From Polaribacter sp. Hel1_33_78 (GTDB lineage Bacteria > Bacteroidota > Bacteroidia > Flavobacteriales > Flavobacteriaceae), in contig NZ_LT629794.1 of NCBI RefSeq assembly GCF_900106075.1, forward strand, positions 682,001 through 746,000: 64,000 nucleotides of DNA, read 5' to 3'. Position numbers and translations under genes: made by a program. The notes under the pieces were generated by a model. It was not told where the DNA came from and made no database searches. It saw only the letters and a program-made list of their open reading frames with translations. Positions 319 through 14,690 of this stretch are shown piece after piece. Position 1 is the first letter of the stretch; each line of letters begins with the position of its first letter.

Positions 319-1658
319 ATTTAAAAAAGATACAGACCATTTATTTTGTTGGTATTGGAGGTATTGGAATGAGTGCAATTGCTCGTTACTTTGCATCCAA
401 TGGAAAGCTTGTGGCTGGTTATGACAAAACTCCGTCTCAAATAATTTCGAGTTTAGAGGAATTGGGTGTTGAAATTCATTTTGAAGATAGTTTAAAGAAC
501 ATACCAATTTCTTTTTTAGATAAGGATAAAACCTTGGTTGTGTACACACCAGCAATTGCCGAAAATCATACAGAATTAAATTACTTCTTAAATAATAATT
601 TTAAGGTTTTAAAAAGAGCAGAAGTTTTAGGTAAAATTACAGAAAGCACTTTTTGTCTGGCTGTTGCTGGAACGCATGGGAAAACTACAACTTCTTCTAT
701 TTTAGGACATATTATGCATCAACAAAAAGCGACTTCTTTTTTAGGTGGAATTGCTGAAAATTACAATTCAAATTTAATTTTGGGTGAAGACAAAGTTTCG
801 GTTGTTGAAGCAGATGAGTTTGATCGATCTTTCTTACAATTGAGTCCTAATATTGCTTGTATAACTTCTATGGATGCTGATCATTTAGATATCTATGGAG
901 AAGCAGCAGTTTTAGAAGAATCGTTTGTAGAGTTTGCAAATAAAGTTTCAGGTACATTAATCATTGCAAAAGGATTGCCTTTAAAAGGGTTAACCTATGC
1001 TGTAAACGAAGCCGCAGATTACAGAGCCTTTAATTTAAAAATTGAAAGTGGAAAGTATATTTTTGATGTCCAAACACCATCAGAAAGTATAAAAAATATT
1101 GAATTCTATTTACCAGGTAAGCATAATGTAATGAATGCTTTAGCTGCATTTGCAATGGCAGATGTATATGGTGTTCCCGCAAAAAAAATTAAATTAAGTT
1201 TGTCAACTTTTAAAGGGGTGAAACGTAGGTTTTCTTATAAAATAAAAACGAGTGACTTTGTTTTGATTGATGATTATGCACATCATCCAACAGAAATAAA
1301 TGCAGTAGAAAATTCCATAAGAGAAATGTATCCCAAAGAAAAAGTATTGGCTGTTTTTCAACCACATTTATTTTCTAGAACAAGAGATTTTATCGATGAT
1401 TTTGCAACTGCATTATCAAAATTTGATGAAATCTTATTATTAGATATTTATCCAGCAAGAGAATTACCAATTGCTGGGGTAAGTTCTGAATGGTTATTTC
1501 ATAAAATAGAGAACAAGCATAAAAAATTGGTTCAAAAAAATAATTTAATAAAAGATATTAAAAAATCGACAGCAAAAGTAGTTGTAATGTTAGGTGCTGG
1601 TGACATTGGAGAAATGGTAAATGAAGTAAAAATAAACTTTTATAATTCAAGAAAATGA
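315..1658 (+). CDS. murC: UDP-N-acetylmuramate--L-alanine ligase MurC
   Basis: Cytoplasmic ATP-dependent ligase that adds L-alanine to UDP-MurNAc, the first step of the peptidoglycan stem peptide. The 447-residue protein has the family length. Visible motifs: N-terminal nucleotide-fold glycines GIGGIGM (13-19), Mur-ligase P-loop AGTHGKTTT (118-126), EADEFDRSF (165-173) and the C-terminal [10 protein letters not shown] signature. The start is GTG inside the murG stop (GTGA overlap), chosen because the N-terminal glycine fold follows directly. Its end overlaps ftsQ by ATGA, giving a tightly coupled operon. Confidence 0.96.
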
Positions 1659-2380
1659 AATTCAGAAAGGTTTTAAAATACTTGTTATTTCCAGCTTTGA
1701 TGGTGGGTTTAGGGTTTTTGTACAGTTTTTCATCAACAAGAAATCTGCAAATAAAAATAGCAGAGCCTATTGTAGAATTTGAAGAAGGGGATAATAATTT
1801 TTTAACATATTCAATGGTTAATAAATTGTTAATACAAAATAAAGAAACAGTGCAAAACCAAGCGAAATCTGTGATAAATTTATACGGATTAGAGAATAGA
1901 GTGTCCAAAAATCCATATGTAGAAAATGCAACCATTTTTTTAACGATTGATGGCAGACTAAAAACAATTATTAAACAACGGATACCTGTTGCTAGAATTG
2001 TTTTAAAAAGTGGCTCTTATTACATTGATAAACAAGGAGTAAAAGTCCCTTTGTCCAATAATTATTCTGCAAGAGTAATGTTGATTTCGGGAGTTGAAAA
2101 TGTGGAAGCTGTTAACGAGATTTTACCTTTGATTTCTTTAATATTAGGGGATGAATTTTTACATAAAGAGATTGTTGGAATTGAAAAATCTGAAGTTCAT
2201 GAGTATAAGTTTTCTGTGAGAAGTGGTGATTATAAAATAAATTTTGGAAAATTATCTGAAATGGAAACAAAATTTAAGAAGTTGAAAGCTTTTTACAGCA
2301 AAACATTTAAAGATAAAACTATTAAAAATTACAATTTAATAAATTTAAAATATCACAACCAAGTTGTGTGCATTAAATAA
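1655..2380 (+). CDS. ftsQ: Cell division protein FtsQ
   Basis: Bitopic inner-membrane divisome protein that links FtsA/FtsZ with the periplasmic septal machinery. The 241-residue protein has a short basic cytoplasmic start, one membrane segment at about residues 8-26, and then a periplasmic part with a POTRA-like region and a beta domain (for example YYIDKQGVKVPLS, matching the FtsQ pattern around the so-called D-x-x-G). Sequence conservation in FtsQ is weak, so position between murC and ftsA is a main support. It starts with ATG overlapping the murC stop by four bases, and ftsA follows after six bases. Confidence 0.9.
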   Translation: MKFRKVLKYLLFPALMVGLGFLYSFSSTRNLQIKIAEPIVEFEEGDNNFLTYSMVNKLLIQNKETVQNQAKSVINLYGLENRVSKNPYVENATIFLTIDGRLKTIIKQRIPVARIVLKSGSYYIDKQGVKVPLSNNYSARVMLISGVENVEAVNEILPLISLILGDEFLHKEIVGIEKSEVHEYKFSVRSGDYKINFGKLSEMETKFKKLKAFYSKTFKDKTIKNYNLINLKYHNQVVCIK

Positions 2381-2386
2381 ATCAAA

Positions 2387-3715
2387 ATGGAAGACAATAA
2401 AATAGCTGTTGGTTTAGATATTGGTACAACCAAGATTGTTGCCATGATTGGTCGTAAAAACGAATATGGCAAGATTGAGGTTGTTGGTATCGGAAAAGCT
2501 AAAAGCCTAGGCGTGAAACGTGGAGTTGTAAGTAATATTACACAAACGATTCAATCAATTCAACAAGCGGTAGATGAAGCACAAAGTGTTTCTGGTGTAA
2601 AGATTGAAGATGTTGTTGTTGGTATTGCTGGTCAGCATATAAGAAGCTTACATCATAGTGATTATATCACAAGAAATAATGCTGATGAAGTTATAGATGA
2701 AGATGATATTGAAGACTTAGTGAATCAAGTTCATAAGTTGGTGATGTTACCGGGAGAAGAAATTATTCACGTATTACCACAAGAATTTAAAGTAGATTCT
2801 CAAGCAGATATCAAAGAGCCAATAGGTATGTATGGTGGTCGTTTGGAAGCTAATTTTCATGTTGTTGTTGGTCAAGTTTCATCAATTAGAAATATTGGAC
2901 GATGTGTAAAAAGTGCGGGTTTAGGGTTAAGTGAAATTACATTAGAACCCTTAGCTTCGGCTTCAGCAGTATTAAGTCAGGAAGAAAAAGAAGCGGGAGT
3001 CGCTCTCATTGATATAGGAGGCGGAACTACAGATTTAGCAATTTTTAAAGACGGAATTATCAGACATACTGCTGTCATTCCTTTTGGAGGAAATGTAATT
3101 ACAGATGATGTTAAAGAAGGTTGTTCTATCATTGAAAAACAAGCTGAATTATTAAAAATTAAGTTTGGTTCTGCTTGGCCAGGAGAAAATAAAGAAACAG
3201 AAATTGTATCTATACCTGGGTTAAGAGGAAGAGAGCCAAAAGAAATCACATTAAAAAATTTATCAAAAATTATACATGCAAGAGTTCAAGAAATTATTGA
3301 GCATGTGTATTTAGAGATAAAAAATTACGGACATGAAACGGCAAAAGGAAAACTAATTGCGGGAATTGTTTTAACAGGAGGTGGTTCTCAACTAAAACAT
3401 TTACGTCAGTTAGTTGAATATATAACGGGTATGGATGCCAGAATAGGATTTCCTAATGAGCATTTAGCCGGAGATTCTGATGAAGGCTTGTCAAGTCCTT
3501 CTTACGCCACAGCTGTTGGTTTGTTGATGGTCGGTTTAGAGAAAGATATTAAAGTAGAAGATATTATTGAGGAGACTGTATCTGAATCAAATGCAGAGAC
3601 AGAAGAGCAAGAAGAAATTCAAGCAAAAAGTGAGGAAAAACCAAAACCTACGAAGAAATCTTTTTTCGAAAAATTTACAGAAGGTTTAAAGGATTTTTTA
3701 GACAACGCTGAGTAA
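2387..3715 (+). CDS. ftsA: Cell division protein FtsA
   Basis: Actin-fold ATPase that anchors FtsZ filaments to the membrane. It has 442 residues, with the phosphate-1 motif LDIGTTK (10-16), a second nucleotide motif IDIGGGTTDLAIF around residue 208, and the adenosine motif IVLTGGGSQL near residue 327. An acidic linker (EETVSESNAETEEQEE) leads to a basic/hydrophobic C-terminal amphipathic helix (KKSFFEKFTEGLKDFL), the expected membrane-targeting sequence. It follows ftsQ by six bases and precedes ftsZ by 66 bases of AT-rich DNA. Confidence 0.97.
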   Translation: MEDNKIAVGLDIGTTKIVAMIGRKNEYGKIEVVGIGKAKSLGVKRGVVSNITQTIQSIQQAVDEAQSVSGVKIEDVVVGIAGQHIRSLHHSDYITRNNADEVIDEDDIEDLVNQVHKLVMLPGEEIIHVLPQEFKVDSQADIKEPIGMYGGRLEANFHVVVGQVSSIRNIGRCVKSAGLGLSEITLEPLASASAVLSQEEKEAGVALIDIGGGTTDLAIFKDGIIRHTAVIPFGGNVITDDVKEGCSIIEKQAELLKIKFGSAWPGENKETEIVSIPGLRGREPKEITLKNLSKIIHARVQEIIEHVYLEIKNYGHETAKGKLIAGIVLTGGGSQLKHLRQLVEYITGMDARIGFPNEHLAGDSDEGLSSPSYATAVGLLMVGLEKDIKVEDIIEETVSESNAETEEQEEIQAKSEEKPKPTKKSFFEKFTEGLKDFLDNAE

Positions 3716-3781: not shown

Positions 3782-5680
3782 ATGAGCTCAGAATTTGATA
3801 ACATTTTATTTGACATGCCAAAAACACAATCTAATACCATAAAAGTAATTGGTGTTGGTGGTGGTGGAAGCAATGCAGTAAATCACATGTTTACCCAAAG
3901 CATAAAAGGAGTAGATTTTGTAATCTGTAATACAGATGCACAAGCTCTAGAAAACAGCCCAATTCCTAATAAAATACAGTTAGGAGCAAACTTAACATCT
4001 GGTTTAGGAGCTGGTGCAAATCCAGAAATTGGGGCACAAGCAGCTAAAGAAAGTATGCAAGAAATACAGCAAATGCTAAATACCCAAACAAAAATGGTAT
4101 TTATTACTGCGGGTATGGGTGGTGGAACTGGTACTGGTGCGGCACCAATTATTGCTAAAATTGCCAAAGACATGGACATCTTAACTGTTGGTATTGTGAC
4201 AATGCCATTTGCTTTCGAAGGGAAAAGACGCTCAAAACAGGCTCAATTGGGAATTGATCAATTGCGCCAAAATGTGGATTCTTTAATTGTTATTAATAAT
4301 AATAAATTAAGGGAAGTTTACGGAAACCTAGGTTTTAAAGCAGGTTTTTCGAAAGCTGATGAAGTTTTATCTACTGCTTCTAAAGGAATTGCAGAAGTTA
4401 TTACGCATCACTACAAACAAAATATTGACTTGCATGATGCTAAAACGGTCCTTTCTAATAGCGGTACAGCAATTATGGGCTCTGCAAAAGAAGAAGGTCA
4501 AACCAGAGCAAAAACAGCTATTGTAAAAGCATTAGATTCACCGTTATTAAATGATAATAAAATTACAGGTGCTAAAAATGTATTATTACTTATTGTATCT
4601 GGGACTAATGAAGTTACCTTAGATGAAATTGGTGAAATCAACGATTACATTCAAGATGAAGCTGGATATGACGCTAATATTATTATGGGTATTGGAGAAG
4701 ATGCGGACTTGGGAGATGCAATTGCAGTAACAATTGTTGCTACTGGTTTTGCGGCAGATCAACAAAGTACAATTACAAATACAGAGGTAAAAAAAATCAT
4801 TCACACTTTAGAGGATGAACAAAAAGCTACGTATAACTTTACAGAAAAAACAGTAACGAAATCACCTACTTTAAATACTCCCATTTCTAATACGGGAGCA
4901 CAAAAAATTATACACGTTTTAGGAGATGAAATGGAAGATACTAAACCAAAAATGGATTTAGTGGCTACAAATCCAATTATTTCAAACATGCCAGTAACTT
5001 TTGATGAGGTTTCTAGTGATGTTGTTTCTGAAGATGATTTTATCATTACGGATGCTTTAAAAGTGGAAGAAAAAGTGGAAGAAGTATCGACGCAATTTCA
5101 AACAGATTTAATGTTTGATTTACCTTTAAATCCTGATGCAGAAATAAAGTCTGAAGACGAAATTAGATTTAATTTAAATATAGAGAAAGAATTAAATATC
5201 CATGAAATTGAGGTTTATGGAGCGCAAGAAATTAAGGCTGAAAAGAAAGAAGTTGAAAAAAGATATATTTTAGAAGATTTTGATGCTCAACCAACAATAG
5301 GTAAAAGTTCTAGTTTTGTGGAGAAAAAAGTAATTGAGGAAGAAGAATTTCAATTTGAATTAAAAACAACAAAACCGCAATCAGAAATTAATAAGATTGA
5401 AACCACGAGTGAGGAAGTTTCCCCATTAGACTTAACAATTTCTGAATTACAAAAGAGAGCAGAGGAAAGACGTAAAAAAATGAAAGGTTTTAATTATAAG
5501 TTTAATGATCAATTAGGTAAAAATATTGATGAAATAGAACGTCAACCGGCATATAAAAGAATGGGTGTGGATTTAGATAAAAATACATCCATAAGTAAAA
5601 CAGAAACTTCATTAAAAAAAGACAATGATGATTTAGGTTTTAAATCTAATAACTCTTTTTTACATGATAATGTAGATTAA
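3782..5680 (+). CDS. ftsZ: Cell division GTPase FtsZ with long C-terminal tail
   Basis: Tubulin-like GTPase that forms the Z ring. The GTP-binding fold shows GVGGGGSNAVNHM (24-36) and the tubulin signature GGGTGTGAA (113-121). A synergy-loop region (YDANIIMGIGED) lies near residue 298. The globular part ends near residue 325. After it comes an acidic, Glu/Lys-rich linker of roughly 300 residues, so the protein (632 residues) is much longer than the roughly 390 of model bacteria. The last residues (SFLHDNVD) may be the partner-binding tail. It is the last gene of the division cluster and is followed by a strong terminator. Confidence 0.97.
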   Translation: MSSEFDNILFDMPKTQSNTIKVIGVGGGGSNAVNHMFTQSIKGVDFVICNTDAQALENSPIPNKIQLGANLTSGLGAGANPEIGAQAAKESMQEIQQMLNTQTKMVFITAGMGGGTGTGAAPIIAKIAKDMDILTVGIVTMPFAFEGKRRSKQAQLGIDQLRQNVDSLIVINNNKLREVYGNLGFKAGFSKADEVLSTASKGIAEVITHHYKQNIDLHDAKTVLSNSGTAIMGSAKEEGQTRAKTAIVKALDSPLLNDNKITGAKNVLLLIVSGTNEVTLDEIGEINDYIQDEAGYDANIIMGIGEDADLGDAIAVTIVATGFAADQQSTITNTEVKKIIHTLEDEQKATYNFTEKTVTKSPTLNTPISNTGAQKIIHVLGDEMEDTKPKMDLVATNPIISNMPVTFDEVSSDVVSEDDFIITDALKVEEKVEEVSTQFQTDLMFDLPLNPDAEIKSEDEIRFNLNIEKELNIHEIEVYGAQEIKAEKKEVEKRYILEDFDAQPTIGKSSSFVEKKVIEEEEFQFELKTTKPQSEINKIETTSEEVSPLDLTISELQKRAEERRKKMKGFNYKFNDQLGKNIDEIERQPAYKRMGVDLDKNTSISKTETSLKKDNDDLGFKSNNSFLHDNVD

Positions 5681-5984: not shown

Positions 5985-6200
5985 ATGAAATATTTAAAAA
6001 CGGTATCATTAGAAGAAAGAGGAATTTTAACATCTGCGTATAAAAAAGAAATTAAAAAGAACATGAAGTTAGAGAAATCTAAATCAGTATCTAGAATTAA
6101 GGATATGATTTTAAATCATCATGGAAAAATAGAAAGTCAAGTAGGAACTATTTTACAAGTTTCATTGTTTGCATTTGCTATTATTATGATCGTTTACTAA
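5985..6200 (+). CDS. Small membrane-anchored protein of unknown function
   Basis: A 71-residue protein that I do not recognise. The first 50 residues are strongly basic (KKEIKKNMKLEKSKSVSRIK), and the last 18 or so are hydrophobic (VSLFAFAIIMIVY), giving a C-terminal membrane anchor with a cytoplasmic basic part. It stands alone: a terminator lies upstream after ftsZ and a bidirectional hairpin lies downstream. The codon pattern looks coding and the ATG is well placed after an AT-rich leader. The function is open; a tail-anchored regulatory or structural peptide is possible. Confidence 0.6.
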   Translation: MKYLKTVSLEERGILTSAYKKEIKKNMKLEKSKSVSRIKDMILNHHGKIESQVGTILQVSLFAFAIIMIVY

Positions 6201-6368
6201 AAGGTAAAAGGATTTTGAATAGAGAAAGTAGCTTATAAATAAGTCCTGTTTAGTGATAGTAAGGATATCCTTTTAAATATCAGTTTGAGTAAATTTTGAG
6301 GAAAGAACAAATCTAAAATATATAAAATAACACATTTTAGATTGTTTTAAAAACACACAACATCAAAA

Positions 6369-10671: not shown

Positions 10672-12369
10672 TTATAAAATCTCTACAAACAAACCTTCAT
10701 CGGTTTTAGATACTTTTGCAACATTTTTCTTTGTTAAACCTTTAATCGTTTTATCCCATTTTTTATTAGACAAACCAGATTGAGTTTTTAAAGAATTTAA
10801 AGCTATTTTTTCTGCTTTTGTGATGATATCAAGTAAGTCCTTTTCCTCAACAGTGAGTTCTACATCTAAAGCGATTCGCTTCTCTGGTCGCATTTGCGGG
10901 AAGAACAGCACTTCTTGTATCGATTGATTGTTAGTTAAGAACATAATTAGTCTGTCCATTCCAATTCCCATTCCAGAGGTTGGAGGCATACCATATTCTA
11001 AAGCACGTAAGAAATCTTCGTCAATAAATTCTGTAGCTTCATCATCTCCTTTTTGCGCTAACTTTAATTGGTGCTCAAAACGCTCACGTTGATCAATTGG
11101 GTCATTTAATTCAGAATATGCATTGGCAATTTCTTTACCACAAACCATCAATTCGAAACGCTCTGTTAATTCCGGATTGTCTCTGTGTTCTTTACAAAGT
11201 GGAGACATTTCCTTCGGATAATCTGTAATAAAAGTTGGCTGAATGTAGTTTCCTTCGCATTTCTCTCCAAAAATTTCATCAATCAATTTTCCTTTTCCCA
11301 TCGTTTCATCAACAGGAATATTCATTGATTTTGCAGCTTCTCTAATTTCATCTTCTGTTTTTCCAATAATATCGAAGCCCGTAAAATGTTTTATAGAGTC
11401 TGCCATCGTAACTCTTGCATAAGGCGCTTTAAAGTCAATTTTATGTTCCCCAAAAGTAGCTTCTGATGTTCCATTTACAGCAATTGCACAGTGTTCTAAC
11501 AATTGCTCAGCAAAATCCATCATCCAATTGTAATCCTTGTAAGACACATAGATTTCCATGGCTGTAAACTCAGGATTATGAGTTCTATCCATTCCTTCAT
11601 TTCTAAAGTTTTTGGAGAATTCATAAACCCCGTCAAAACCACCAACAATTAATCTTTTTAGATATAATTCATTGGCAATTCTCATATATAAAGGAATATC
11701 TAAAGAATTGTGATGCGTTATAAATGGCCTTGCAGCAGCACCTCCAGGAATTGGTTGCAAAACCGGTGTTTCAACTTCAAAATAACCAGCGTCGTTGAAG
11801 AACGAACGCATAGCATTAAATAGTTTCGTTCTTTTTATAAAAACTTCTTTTACATGTGGGTTTACAACTAAATCTGCATAACGTTGTCTGTAACGCATTT
11901 CTGGATCTGTAAAAGCGTCGTATGTAACACCATCTTTAACTTTTGGCATCGGTAAAGGCTTTAATGCCTTAGAAAGCATTTTAAAACTTTTTACCATGAT
12001 TGTTTTCTCGCCAACTTGTGTAGTGAAGAGTGTACCTGTAATTCCAACAAAATCCCCTAAATCTAATAGTTTTTTGAAAACGTTGTTATACAAAGATTTG
12101 TCTTCTCCTTCACAAATTTCATCTCTATTAAAATAAAGTTGAATCCTACCTTCACCATCTTGCAATTGGCCAAAAGAGGCTTTTCCTTGAATATTTATAA
12201 CCATTAATCGGCCTGCAATAACTACCTGTTTACCTTCAATATAGTTTTCTTTTATTTCTTTCGAATTAGAATTTATTGGAAATAAATCTGCAGGATAAGG
12301 GTTTATTCCCAAATCTCTTAATTTTGCTAGCTTTTCTCTACGTACAACTTCTTGTTCTGATAATTGCAT
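10672..12369 (-). CDS. lysS: Lysine--tRNA ligase
   Basis: Class II aminoacyl-tRNA synthetase that charges tRNA-Lys. From the chosen ATG at 12369 it has 565 residues: an N-terminal OB-fold anticodon-binding domain (VVIAGRLMVINIQGKASFG), then class II motif 1, motif 2 (FRNEGMDRTHNPEF) and motif 3 (GMGIGMDRLIMFLT). About 65 residues follow motif 3, a Lys-rich tail also common in Bacteroidetes LysS. The frame is open 19 codons further upstream, but MQLSEQEVVRREKLAKLRDLG is the usual start. A probable promoter (TTG, 20 bases, TATCTTCG) lies upstream on the minus strand. Confidence 0.96.
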   Translation of the reverse strand: MQLSEQEVVRREKLAKLRDLGINPYPADLFPINSNSKEIKENYIEGKQVVIAGRLMVINIQGKASFGQLQDGEGRIQLYFNRDEICEGEDKSLYNNVFKKLLDLGDFVGITGTLFTTQVGEKTIMVKSFKMLSKALKPLPMPKVKDGVTYDAFTDPEMRYRQRYADLVVNPHVKEVFIKRTKLFNAMRSFFNDAGYFEVETPVLQPIPGGAAARPFITHHNSLDIPLYMRIANELYLKRLIVGGFDGVYEFSKNFRNEGMDRTHNPEFTAMEIYVSYKDYNWMMDFAEQLLEHCAIAVNGTSEATFGEHKIDFKAPYARVTMADSIKHFTGFDIIGKTEDEIREAAKSMNIPVDETMGKGKLIDEIFGEKCEGNYIQPTFITDYPKEMSPLCKEHRDNPELTERFELMVCGKEIANAYSELNDPIDQRERFEHQLKLAQKGDDEATEFIDEDFLRALEYGMPPTSGMGIGMDRLIMFLTNNQSIQEVLFFPQMRPEKRIALDVELTVEEKDLLDIITKAEKIALNSLKTQSGLSNKKWDKTIKGLTKKNVAKVSKTDEGLFVEIL

Positions 12370-12466
12370 TTGATGTATAAATTTTCTGGTGTTTATTAAA
12401 GGTTGCGAAGATACAATCAAATGCATTAATAGGCAATTTAGATAATTGTAAAAAAGAATATATTTA

Positions 12467-12497
12467 TTTGTGAATAGTTAAAAACAGTGTATATTTG
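12467..12497 (+). promoter_or_regulatory. Two-part Bacteroidetes promoter of a small RNA
   Basis: TTTG (12467-12470), 19-base spacer, then TATATTTG (12490-12497). Both parts match the Bacteroidetes minus-33 and minus-7 consensus exactly. No start codon with a real gene follows for 290 bases; instead three hairpins and a terminator follow. The spacer carries AAAACAGT, a copy of the right arm of the first hairpin. Confidence 0.8.
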
Positions 12498-12500
12498 TAG

Positions 12501-12607
12501 ACTGTTTTTTGTTAAAACAGTATTAGTTGTGTTGTTTGGCACTTTATAAAAAGTGCCGTGGTTTTGTTAACCAATGGAAAGCTTCCCTGAAATGGGACGC
12601 TTTTTTT
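12501..12607 (+). ncRNA. Candidate independent small RNA, about 105 nt
   Basis: An unannotated transcript is inferred from the promoter upstream and the terminator at its end. Structure seen directly: 5' hairpin ACTGTTTT/AAAACAGT (12501-12508/12514-12521, loop TTGTT); central hairpin GGCACTTT/AAAGTGCC (12538-12545/12550-12557, loop ATAA); small hairpin TGGTT/AACCA (12559-12563/12569-12573, again loop TTGTT); and a terminator hairpin. The predicted transcript start falls at the base of the first hairpin. There is no open frame of useful length inside. It lacks the conserved SRP RNA tetraloop region and the tmRNA elements. It could be one of the Rfam families known from Flavobacteria (for example Flavo-1 or 6S-Flavo), but I cannot match it from memory. 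Confidence 0.65.
12578..12607 (+). terminator. Terminator of the small RNA
   Basis: AAAGCTTCCC pairs with GGGACGCTTT with one T/C mismatch, loop TGAAAT; the T run covers 12601-12607. Confidence 0.75.
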
Positions 12608-12795: not shown

Positions 12796-13419
12796 ATGAA
12801 AAAAATATTTTTAGTAGGCAGTATTATTTTACTAAGTTCTTGCGCCACAGTGAAGTTTAAGGAGAAATGGTTAAAAGAAAATTCTCCAAATACTTTTAAA
12901 GCGAGATTTGAAACCACGAAAGGTAATTTTGATATCGTTGCACGAAGAGCTTGGTCGCCAAAAGGGGTAGACAGATTATATCAAATGATAAAAAATGACT
13001 ATTACCAAGATGTCGCTATTTACAGAGTTGTACCAAAATTTGTTGCTCAATTTGGCATTCACAATGATAGCATCATACACGGAAGTTGGAGTAAAGGAAT
13101 TGATGATGAACCTGTATTGGCTAAAAATGATTTTATGACCATTTCTTTTGCCAGAGGAGGCGTAAAGACAAGATCGAATCAAATATTTATCAACTTAAAA
13201 GAAAATCATAGATTAGATAAACTCACTTATTCAGGTGTAACAGGTTTTCCAGTAGTAGCAAAAGTAATTGCTGGTCAAGAAAATGTGTTGAAGTTCTATA
13301 ACGGTTATGGAGATGAATTAGGTTACAAACAAGACTCTATTACCAAATTTGGAAATAAATTTTTAAAAGATAAATTTCCTAAGGTAGATTATATTAAAAA
13401 GGCGTACATCATAAAATAA
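12796..13419 (+). CDS. Cyclophilin-type peptidyl-prolyl isomerase lipoprotein
   Basis: A 207-residue lipoprotein: signal sequence MKKIFLVGSIILLSSC with the lipobox LSSC (lipid-modified Cys at 16). The mature part is a cyclophilin fold: FETTKGNFDIVARRAWSP (strand 1), YYQDVAIYRVVPKFVAQFG, then FARGGVKTRSNQIFINL and FPVVAKVIAG. Cyclophilins speed proline cis/trans isomerisation, here presumably helping folding in the periplasm. Several catalytic positions differ from model enzymes (the usual F-x-x-Q-G-G-D block reads FVAQFGIHN), so activity is uncertain. The start is chosen by promoter position and signal peptide. Confidence 0.83.
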   Translation: MKKIFLVGSIILLSSCATVKFKEKWLKENSPNTFKARFETTKGNFDIVARRAWSPKGVDRLYQMIKNDYYQDVAIYRVVPKFVAQFGIHNDSIIHGSWSKGIDDEPVLAKNDFMTISFARGGVKTRSNQIFINLKENHRLDKLTYSGVTGFPVVAKVIAGQENVLKFYNGYGDELGYKQDSITKFGNKFLKDKFPKVDYIKKAYIIK

Positions 13420-13511: not shown

Positions 13512-14690
13512 TTAGTTGATTTTAAAAATAACTTTTCTTGCAAATTGTCTCGCTTTTGTTGTAACACTTTTATCTTCTCCACCACCTGCGTAAGATAGTC
13601 TATTAGCACTAATTCCTGCAGAAACTAAAATATCGAACACACTCTTTGCTCTGTTTTTAGACAAAATTTGATTTTGTTTTTCTTTTCCAGTTTCATCTGC
13701 ATAACCAATTAATAGCGCTGAAACATTTGGATTATCTTTCATAAACTGTGTTAAGTAATTTACAGAATTTAAAGAACCTTTTTGAACAGTTTTTTTATTT
13801 ACATCAAAGTAAACATTGATATAGCCATCATTTAATAATTTTCTTATCAAATCTACATTAGAACTCGTTACAACATTTGCATATCTATTAGATGCAACTT
13901 CTCCTTTTAAGGCATATCTGTTGTCTAATTCTTTCACTAATTCTACTTTGTTAATCGTTGCTTTTTTAGTTTTTAAAGTAGCTATTTCCGTTTCAGCTTT
14001 ATCTAAACGTTTTACAATATCGTCTATTTTGTCAGTAACTATAACTTCATCATTTTTTAAAAAATCTGCATTCTCTTTTTGTTTCCCTATAGAAATATTT
14101 ACTCCTAAGGATGTATTTATAATTGCAGGGTTAATTATTCTTGGCTCTTGTATGATAGCTCCGTCAAAAGTATAATGTTGGAATTGATGAAATATAATGG
14201 ATGTGTCGAAAAATAATGAAATACGATTTGATAATTTAAATTGAGGCGTCAAACCCAAAATAAAATTAGTCATAATATCAGTTTCCTGATTTATAGGTTT
14301 TATTGTGCTAGAGGTAGACATACCCACACCAGCGTGAAATAAAAGATTAAATCTTTTTGTCCAACTACTAAAATTTAAAAGATTACCCGCATTTACAATA
14401 CCTTCTATATTTATTCTGTAATAATTAGCTCTAAAAGGTAAACTGTTTTCACCTTCTGCAAACTCATTATAACCTAGACCAAGCCGAAACCCAAATTTTT
14501 CATTAAGCATATATCTAAGCCCTAAACTAGCTTGACCAAAACCAAAATTACCAGAATCATAATTTGGAGAAATATTTTTTGTAATTTGGTGAACTCCTGC
14601 TCCAAAATCTACTGACCACTTATTAAACTCTTGCGCATTTACTTGCATTATAAAGCAAAAGAATAATGCTCCTAAAAATATTTTCCCCAT
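13512..14690 (-). CDS. OmpA-family outer membrane protein
   Basis: A 392-residue outer-membrane protein. The signal peptide MGKIFLGALFFCFIMQVNAQ is cleaved before EF. Residues about 20-200 alternate as beta strands and look like an 8-strand OmpA barrel. A coiled-coil stretch (DDIVKRLDKAETEIATLK) follows. The C-terminal OmpA domain (about 270-392) includes LIGYADETG and the peptidoglycan-contact region NRAKSVFDILVSAGISANRL. It probably ties the outer membrane to peptidoglycan. A TAAATTTG promoter box precedes it on the minus strand. Confidence 0.9.
   Translation of the reverse strand: MGKIFLGALFFCFIMQVNAQEFNKWSVDFGAGVHQITKNISPNYDSGNFGFGQASLGLRYMLNEKFGFRLGLGYNEFAEGENSLPFRANYYRINIEGIVNAGNLLNFSSWTKRFNLLFHAGVGMSTSSTIKPINQETDIMTNFILGLTPQFKLSNRISLFFDTSIIFHQFQHYTFDGAIIQEPRIINPAIINTSLGVNISIGKQKENADFLKNDEVIVTDKIDDIVKRLDKAETEIATLKTKKATINKVELVKELDNRYALKGEVASNRYANVVTSSNVDLIRKLLNDGYINVYFDVNKKTVQKGSLNSVNYLTQFMKDNPNVSALLIGYADETGKEKQNQILSKNRAKSVFDILVSAGISANRLSYAGGGEDKSVTTKARQFARKVIFKIN

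Follow-up and report, generated by a model that had tools for sequence, protein, structure and literature searches.

A predicted small RNA gene divergent from lysS

The window, i.e. the whole stretch of 64,000 nucleotides that was analysed, contains a segment between lysS and a peptidyl-prolyl isomerase gene in which we identified the elements of a putative short, structured transcription unit. These elements and the two flanking genes are as follows:

10672..12369, minus strand: lysS, the divergent neighbour (its longest frame opens at 12426)
12467..12470, plus strand: −33 promoter element TTTG (sequence; in 26 of 30 genus loci, TTG and the −7 box are separated by 18 or 19 bases)
12490..12497, plus strand: −7 promoter element TATATTTG, of the TAnnTTTG type (sequence and genus loci)
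12501..12521, plus strand: 5' hairpin ACTGTTTT/AAAACAGT, 8 pairs, loop TTGTT (sequence, fold, 25 genus rows)
12525..12537, plus strand: unpaired linker AGTTGTGTTGTTT (AGUUGUGUUGUUU in the RNA), a proposed antisense seed (conservation and target ranking)
12538..12557, plus strand: second hairpin GGCACTTT/AAAGTGCC, a covarying stem (paired changes)
12559..12573, plus strand: third hairpin TGGTT/AACCA, loop TTGTT (sequence, fold)
12574..12582, plus strand: ATGGAAAGC, which joins the third hairpin to the terminator (at least 90% identical at every position)
12576..12607, plus strand: intrinsic terminator, a stem with one mismatch followed by seven T (sequence, fold, alignment)
12796..13419, plus strand: gene for a cyclophilin-type peptidyl-prolyl isomerase, the downstream neighbour (annotation)

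All elements of the two-part promoter proposed in the initial annotation are found in the sequence where it had placed them. The two boxes are separated by a spacer of 19 bases, the −7 box reads TATATTTG, TACATTTG or TATATTCG in all 30 loci from the window's genus, and the spacer sequence drifts among these loci while the boxes stay; the transcript is predicted to start at about 12499-12501. The right arm of the 5' hairpin, AAAACAGT, does recur in the promoter spacer, as had been noticed, but inspection by eye shows this repeat in just one of the 29 other genus loci (L003, whose own hairpin arm differs), so that the repeat looks accidental.

Folding of positions 12501-12607 yields −35.6 kcal/mol (z = −4.57), and 0 of 200 shuffled sequences were equally stable. 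The three hairpins and the terminator lie at the positions first given for them, although the terminator stem is not perfect and includes one T.C mismatch. This mismatch (12583 and 12598) is shared by many relatives, where it reads T.C or T.T, and adjoins an invariant AAAGC/GCTTT stem; the run of T occupies 12601-12607. A generic scan for sigma-70 promoters and terminators missed the terminator at 12576-12607 and listed the second hairpin in its place. The loop TTGTT is common to two hairpins in the window, as claimed, but is not kept outside the genus.

When the alignment is read on the plus strand, 821 of 857 core cells are paired, compared to 725 on the minus strand. An RNA from the minus strand would also fold stably, but the G-U pairs, the promoter and the T-run favour the plus strand. 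The segment was originally described as free of coding frames, and this holds across 45 aligned rows (two of them repeats), in which the frames opened by a conserved ATG or GTG stop after 5 to 50 codons. A small ORF starting at the conserved ATG was ruled out, given that the frame length varies between relatives, and a search of the ATGGAAAGC segment for a conserved ORF found none.

Conservation and covariation in Flavobacteriaceae

At E ≤ 0.001, the window's own genome contains one copy; the covariance model R1 yields one additional weak match there (E = 0.007), which is at noise level. Searches with blastn identified orthologues throughout the window's genus and, in the family, matches at E ≤ 1e-4 in 18 of 299 genomes; these include at least one non-orthologue (L047). 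The core alignment, A1, consists of 36 rows; there were 39 distinct cores before selection, and six duplicate cores as well as three distinct ones (L015, L020 and L026) were excluded. In A1, 95.8% of the cells are paired, and the covariation score was reached by 0 of 500 shuffles.

The individual elements differ in how they are conserved. The second hairpin covaries most extensively, with 97.5% of cells paired and both bases changed in 7 of 8 pairs among the 36 rows, and with double changes in 8 of 8 pairs in a set of 83 rows (A2) that was fitted to the covariance model and contains five weak extra matches. For the third hairpin, 89.4% of cells are paired, with no double changes in A1 and double changes in 4 of 5 pairs in A2, and for the terminator stem the paired fraction is 97.5% (36 rows). 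The linker AGUUGUGUUGUUU is at least 90% identical at 11 of 13 positions over the same 36 rows. The 5' hairpin, aligned from 25 of the 30 genus loci, has 98.5% of cells paired and three pairs changed on both sides; it is specific to the window's genus and is missing or different in the other genera examined, where the RNA either starts in the immediate neighbourhood of the linker or opens with another hairpin.

With model R1, matches at E ≤ 0.01 were found in all 97 sampled genomes of the window's genus, with E ≤ 4e-8 in 92; the remaining five genomes are incomplete (53-82%) and their scores are at noise level. Of the 397 sampled Flavobacteriaceae genomes, 268 match at E ≤ 0.01, representing 174 of 237 genera, some of them by chance. 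A class-wide draw of 295 genomes produced 22 matching genomes outside the family at the same threshold, the best at E = 4.1e-4; we count these as noise, and part of the weak matches within the family must therefore be counted as noise as well. In genus g152, which we take to be Flavobacterium because its loci resemble named ones, the model matches 235 of 249 genomes at E ≤ 0.01, and looser filters recover two of the 14 misses at E ≤ 1e-5.

The initial annotation had made its RNA depend in part on conservation of the stems in relatives, and comparison shows that pairing is indeed maintained there through paired changes. The comparison thus supports a real RNA, beyond chance. The conservation of the promoter, the covariation and the lack of an Rfam match (below) likewise support the original proposal, a small RNA that is independent of its neighbours and has both a promoter and a terminator of its own.

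Relation to known RNA families

As the initial annotation had suggested checking, the sequence was compared to Rfam, and no family matches at its cut-off. This includes Flavo-1 (RF01705) and 6S-Flavo, RNA families of the same bacterial group, whose covariance models match neither the window nor the RNA in 15 loci (its own and those of 14 relatives). A single Flavo-1 match lies in the F. psychrophilum locus L217 (3861-3932, minus strand), apart from the RNA. At low thresholds, Phe_leader (RF01859) and STnc230 (RF02075) match near the terminator with weak scores (27.4 and 28.6 bits vs. cut-offs of 55 and 50); however, there is no phe gene downstream here, and the STnc230 match falls on the opposite strand. 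The RNA would form a new Rfam family.

A literature search, with supplements outside its scope, turned up a study of F. psychrophilum (PMC9723704) as the one paper that deals with an RNA of this type. According to the available text of that study, Rfp11, 13, 15 and 18 are structured and conserved, and Rfp18 is conserved in the genus, strongly folded and affects metalloprotease mRNA levels via its third stem-loop, its deletion lowering two metalloprotease mRNAs. The same text places Rfp11 at 182,564, Rfp36 at 840,245, and the pair formed by dxs and its preceding ORF at 356,002 in strain OSU THCO2-90 (PMC9723704). In F. psychrophilum DSM 3660 (L217, genome G1062), the RNA occurs twice on one contig, and dxs with its preceding ORF lies about 22-32 kb away; this map position interpolates to about Rfp16-Rfp19 under the assumption that the numbers are evenly spaced along the genome. 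As far as that text allows, the RNA is probably a relative of Rfp15 or Rfp18, and we do not assert that it is Rfp18 itself. Like the present RNA, Rfp15 and Rfp18 are described there as structured and conserved across species; compared to them, the present RNA lies beside lysS and has its own promoter, an extra 5' hairpin and a linker that is a candidate seed for nucleotide genes. Because RNA-seq has probably already detected a relative in F. psychrophilum (PMC9723704, available text), the term 'unannotated' applies to the genome of the window rather than to the whole family. We thus describe a Flavobacteriaceae-wide family that has no matching Rfam entry and that was probably seen before in F. 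psychrophilum.

FopS of Bacteroides thetaiotaomicron offers a further comparison. The available text of PMC11697453 describes an unpaired 5' seed, an intrinsic terminator and a Bacteroidota promoter for FopS, and gives polysaccharide uptake genes as targets of FopS/GibS. The present RNA resembles FopS, as described there, in its unpaired seed, terminator and promoter, and in its predicted pairing at the 5' regions of functionally grouped mRNAs. FopS, however, binds RbpB, an RRM_1 protein (PMC11697453, available text), whereas no RRM_1 protein was found in the present genome at E ≤ 0.001 (positive control: a Bacteroides genome). Hfq was likewise not detected in this genome at E ≤ 0.001, in a search that works in control genomes. 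No family of the Rfam release used, in which FopS may or may not have an entry, matches the present RNA.

Two genomic settings and integrative elements

In the window's genus, lysS adjoins the RNA in 30 of 30 loci, while the isomerase gene is near the RNA in just one other locus, L011 (tblastn, the latter with 1.5 kb flanks). The RNA is likewise divergent from lysS in several further genera. Still other genera carry it 3' of tRNA-Asp (GTC), in most cases after a DUF58 gene; the RNA is present in 78 of 80 loci found via the DUF58 protein, most of them from Flavobacterium. In the 77 loci caught by pattern, the RNA lies 60-132 bases 3' of tRNA-Asp, and in 76 of them six consecutive T separate the two. 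Two loci of the genera without adjacent lysS, L073 and L135, depart from this arrangement in that the RNA is not immediately preceded by tRNA-Asp. Inspection by eye found no TAnnTTTG box upstream of the tRNA-linked copies. In L054, L061 and L074, the RNA begins only about 9-11 bases after the tRNA, and since no terminator lies between the two, it is possible that the RNA is processed from the tRNA transcript.

Four elements with a tyrosine recombinase gene at tRNA-Asp were identified, in F. psychrophilum (L234), G960, G336 and G488 (L239-L243); the recombinase was confirmed by Pfam in F. psychrophilum and by eye in the other elements. The direct repeats that flank the elements are 163-214 bp long, 98.8-100% identical, and contain the 3' end of tRNA-Asp together with the whole RNA gene (on the F. 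psychrophilum contig L234, they span 4242-4454 and 13734-13947). The arrangement looks as if the recombinase elements bring a copy of the RNA along with them.

Complementarity of the linker to starts of nucleotide genes

What appears to be new here is a link between the linker AGUUGUGUUGUUU and the translation starts of genes for de novo nucleotide synthesis, suggested by sequence complementarity. We searched 16 genomes for the exact complement of the linker, AACAACACAACT (12 bases), and found 43 sites, 17 of them being the genes for the RNA. The other 26 sites compare with 19 for the reversed pattern, which is no clear excess; the reversed pattern is, however, a poor control because the seed core GTTGTGTTG reads the same backwards. 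In a reversed-seed control, the seed was also without advantage (mean energies were alike and the numbers of strong sites equal); this control was dropped in view of the mirror symmetry, and shuffles were used instead. Among the 26 sites, 18 fall within 30 loci examined, and five of these lie at most 150 bases before an ORF on the same strand: purH (G041), purC (G910), pyrD (G858), pnp (F. psychrophilum) and a 67-codon frame (L271). One more begins 8 bases inside an ORF (L247). The protein families of purH, purC, pyrD and pnp were checked, and it is because exact complements precede these four genes that nucleotide synthesis was considered; the hypothesis was recorded before the stretches of the window's own genome were ranked.

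For that ranking, we scored the start region (−40..+15) of 959 ORFs of at least 100 codons, covering 39% of the genome, against a 17-base linker probe. The genes pyrF, purM, guaA and purF ranked 1, 2, 5 and 17. With its start set by hand to GTG, purK ranked 30 (462 with the ATG chosen by the script), and purE, which lies behind purK, ranked 117. Further nucleotide genes ranked lower (PNP 107, but with a high score once the window is widened; Udk 249, Hpt-Adk 391, NrdA 532), and the other top ranks are mostly held by genes unrelated to nucleotide synthesis. Both pyrF and purF were picked out from the head of the ranked list, and since motifs served to locate the enzymes, others may be missed. 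An NCBIfam scan, from which purK and purE were excluded, supports the annotations, with purF and purM below the curated cut-offs. The candidate sites overlap the start codon or closely precede it.

Shuffled probes did not reproduce this result: the four-gene ranks were reached by 0 of 400 shuffles and the five-gene ranks by 0 of 350, where shuffles containing GTTGTG, TTGTGTT or GTGTTG were rejected. The match is also confined in position. The rank sum of the five genes is 55 at −40..+15 vs. 1409-3142 in seven other windows, in which high ranks are isolated (purF 3 and 20, guaA 38); mean energies near 97 in some windows of this analysis are probably due to masked letters. Moving the probe along the RNA gave rank sums of 363, 44, 183 and 737 for windows starting at 12516, 12521, 12526 and 12531, respectively, and of 1750-3704 for windows clear of the linker.

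The result in a second genome, G838 (g152), is mixed. Among its 693 ORFs (27% of the genome), folD came first and prs about 11 (tied 8-13), with pnp tied second in the wider window; no linker site was found for pyrE and pyrH in this set. A prs leader from a different genus, in G237 (L073), gave −13.3 kcal/mol with the linker.

Proposed function and alternative explanations

We favour, with some reserve, the reading that 12501-12607 on the plus strand encodes a trans-acting antisense small RNA that restrains nucleotide synthesis and belongs to a Flavobacteriaceae-wide family. In the window's genus, it would be transcribed from its own TTG-N19-TAnnTTTG promoter, divergently from lysS, and end at the intrinsic terminator, with the hairpins keeping the linker AGUUGUGUUGUUU open. 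The linker would then pair with the translation-start regions of the pyrF, purM, guaA, purF and purK mRNAs in the window's own genome, and with those of purH, purC and pyrD in relatives. Base pairing is favoured because the linker is fixed and unpaired and because the start regions are complementary to it rather than identical. Such pairing would most likely block translation initiation, given that each site either covers the start codon or ends a short distance upstream of it. We infer accordingly from sequence that the RNA is made, that it pairs in the cell and that its effect is repression. A broader version of this proposal appeals to us by a narrower balance of judgement: as a family-wide, Hfq-independent RNA of the Flavobacteriaceae, it may control the de novo synthesis of both purines and pyrimidines post-transcriptionally, being situated behind tRNA-Asp in Flavobacterium and with its own promoter beside lysS elsewhere, and carried by integrative elements that insert at tRNA-Asp.

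Other explanations account for part of these observations. The RNA could be an Rfp18-type small RNA whose main targets, reached via the third stem-loop, are secreted metalloproteases and an adhesin rather than nucleotide genes. The genus-wide conservation and strong fold of Rfp18 and the lower levels of two metalloprotease mRNAs on its deletion, as reported in the available text of PMC9723704, speak for this, as does the map position corresponding to numbers 16-19; yet Rfp15 may fit equally if the numbers are unevenly spaced. In a crude accessible-window pairing test against 50 ORFs of the F. psychrophilum contig, two protease leaders (one a confirmed M36, the other alike by eye, with fpp1/fpp2 outside the test) ranked 12 and 15, and did so via the linker rather than the stem-loop, a result that does not favour the proteases. 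A ranking of full-length duplexes on this contig was uninformative. We regard this explanation as unlikely. Slightly less credible still is that the small RNA is real and the match to nucleotide genes a product of chance, or of the composition of A/C-rich leaders: the sample is small, two of the genes were recognised after the ranking and the G838 result is mixed, but seeds of equal composition gave no match in 750 shuffling trials, and the controls for position and RNA segment are sharp.

A role as a decoy or scaffold, in which UUGUU/GUUGU repeats in two loops and the linker titrate a regulatory protein, appears improbable. The copy in the window does contain UUGUU in both loops and the linker, and the linker is strongly conserved; however, the loop motifs are lost outside the genus, neither an Hfq nor an RRM_1 candidate was found in the window's own genome, and a decoy leaves the complementarity to gene starts unexplained. 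That the segment is a local element of lysS, either a divergent promoter region or a regulator of the lysine-tRNA synthetase, is suggested by the adjacency to lysS in the window's genus and in several other genera. This explanation is largely refuted by the second location, since Flavobacterium and other genera carry the same RNA downstream of tRNA-Asp, where the examined flanks contain no lysS, and by the outward direction of the RNA, which is transcribed away from lysS; we give it hardly any credence.

To our knowledge, the post-transcriptional coordination of nucleotide synthesis and the Hfq-free action of small RNAs are open questions in Bacteroidota. A conserved RNA with a named seed and named target sites, and with no detected Hfq or RRM partner, provides a directly testable case in a large group of marine and freshwater bacteria.

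Additional copies and sites

The model matched two to six times at E ≤ 0.01 in each of the family genomes G178, G439, G156, G213 and G110; in G439, the one examined closely, the RNA copies are near tRNA-Asp. The stretch L238 of G826 contains a partial second copy of the RNA region (117 bp, 94.9% identity) at a distance of 4.7 kb; the copies are at 1502-1618 and 6164-6280, and no recombinase gene was seen between them. In the pnp leaders of F. psychrophilum (L248:1501-1512) and G838 (L342), the sequence CAACAACACAAC, complementary to the linker, lies about 45-51 bases before the PNPase start in both cases. In L131 (914-1715), five tRNA-Asp genes occur within about 800 bases, one of them 5' and four 3' of the RNA.
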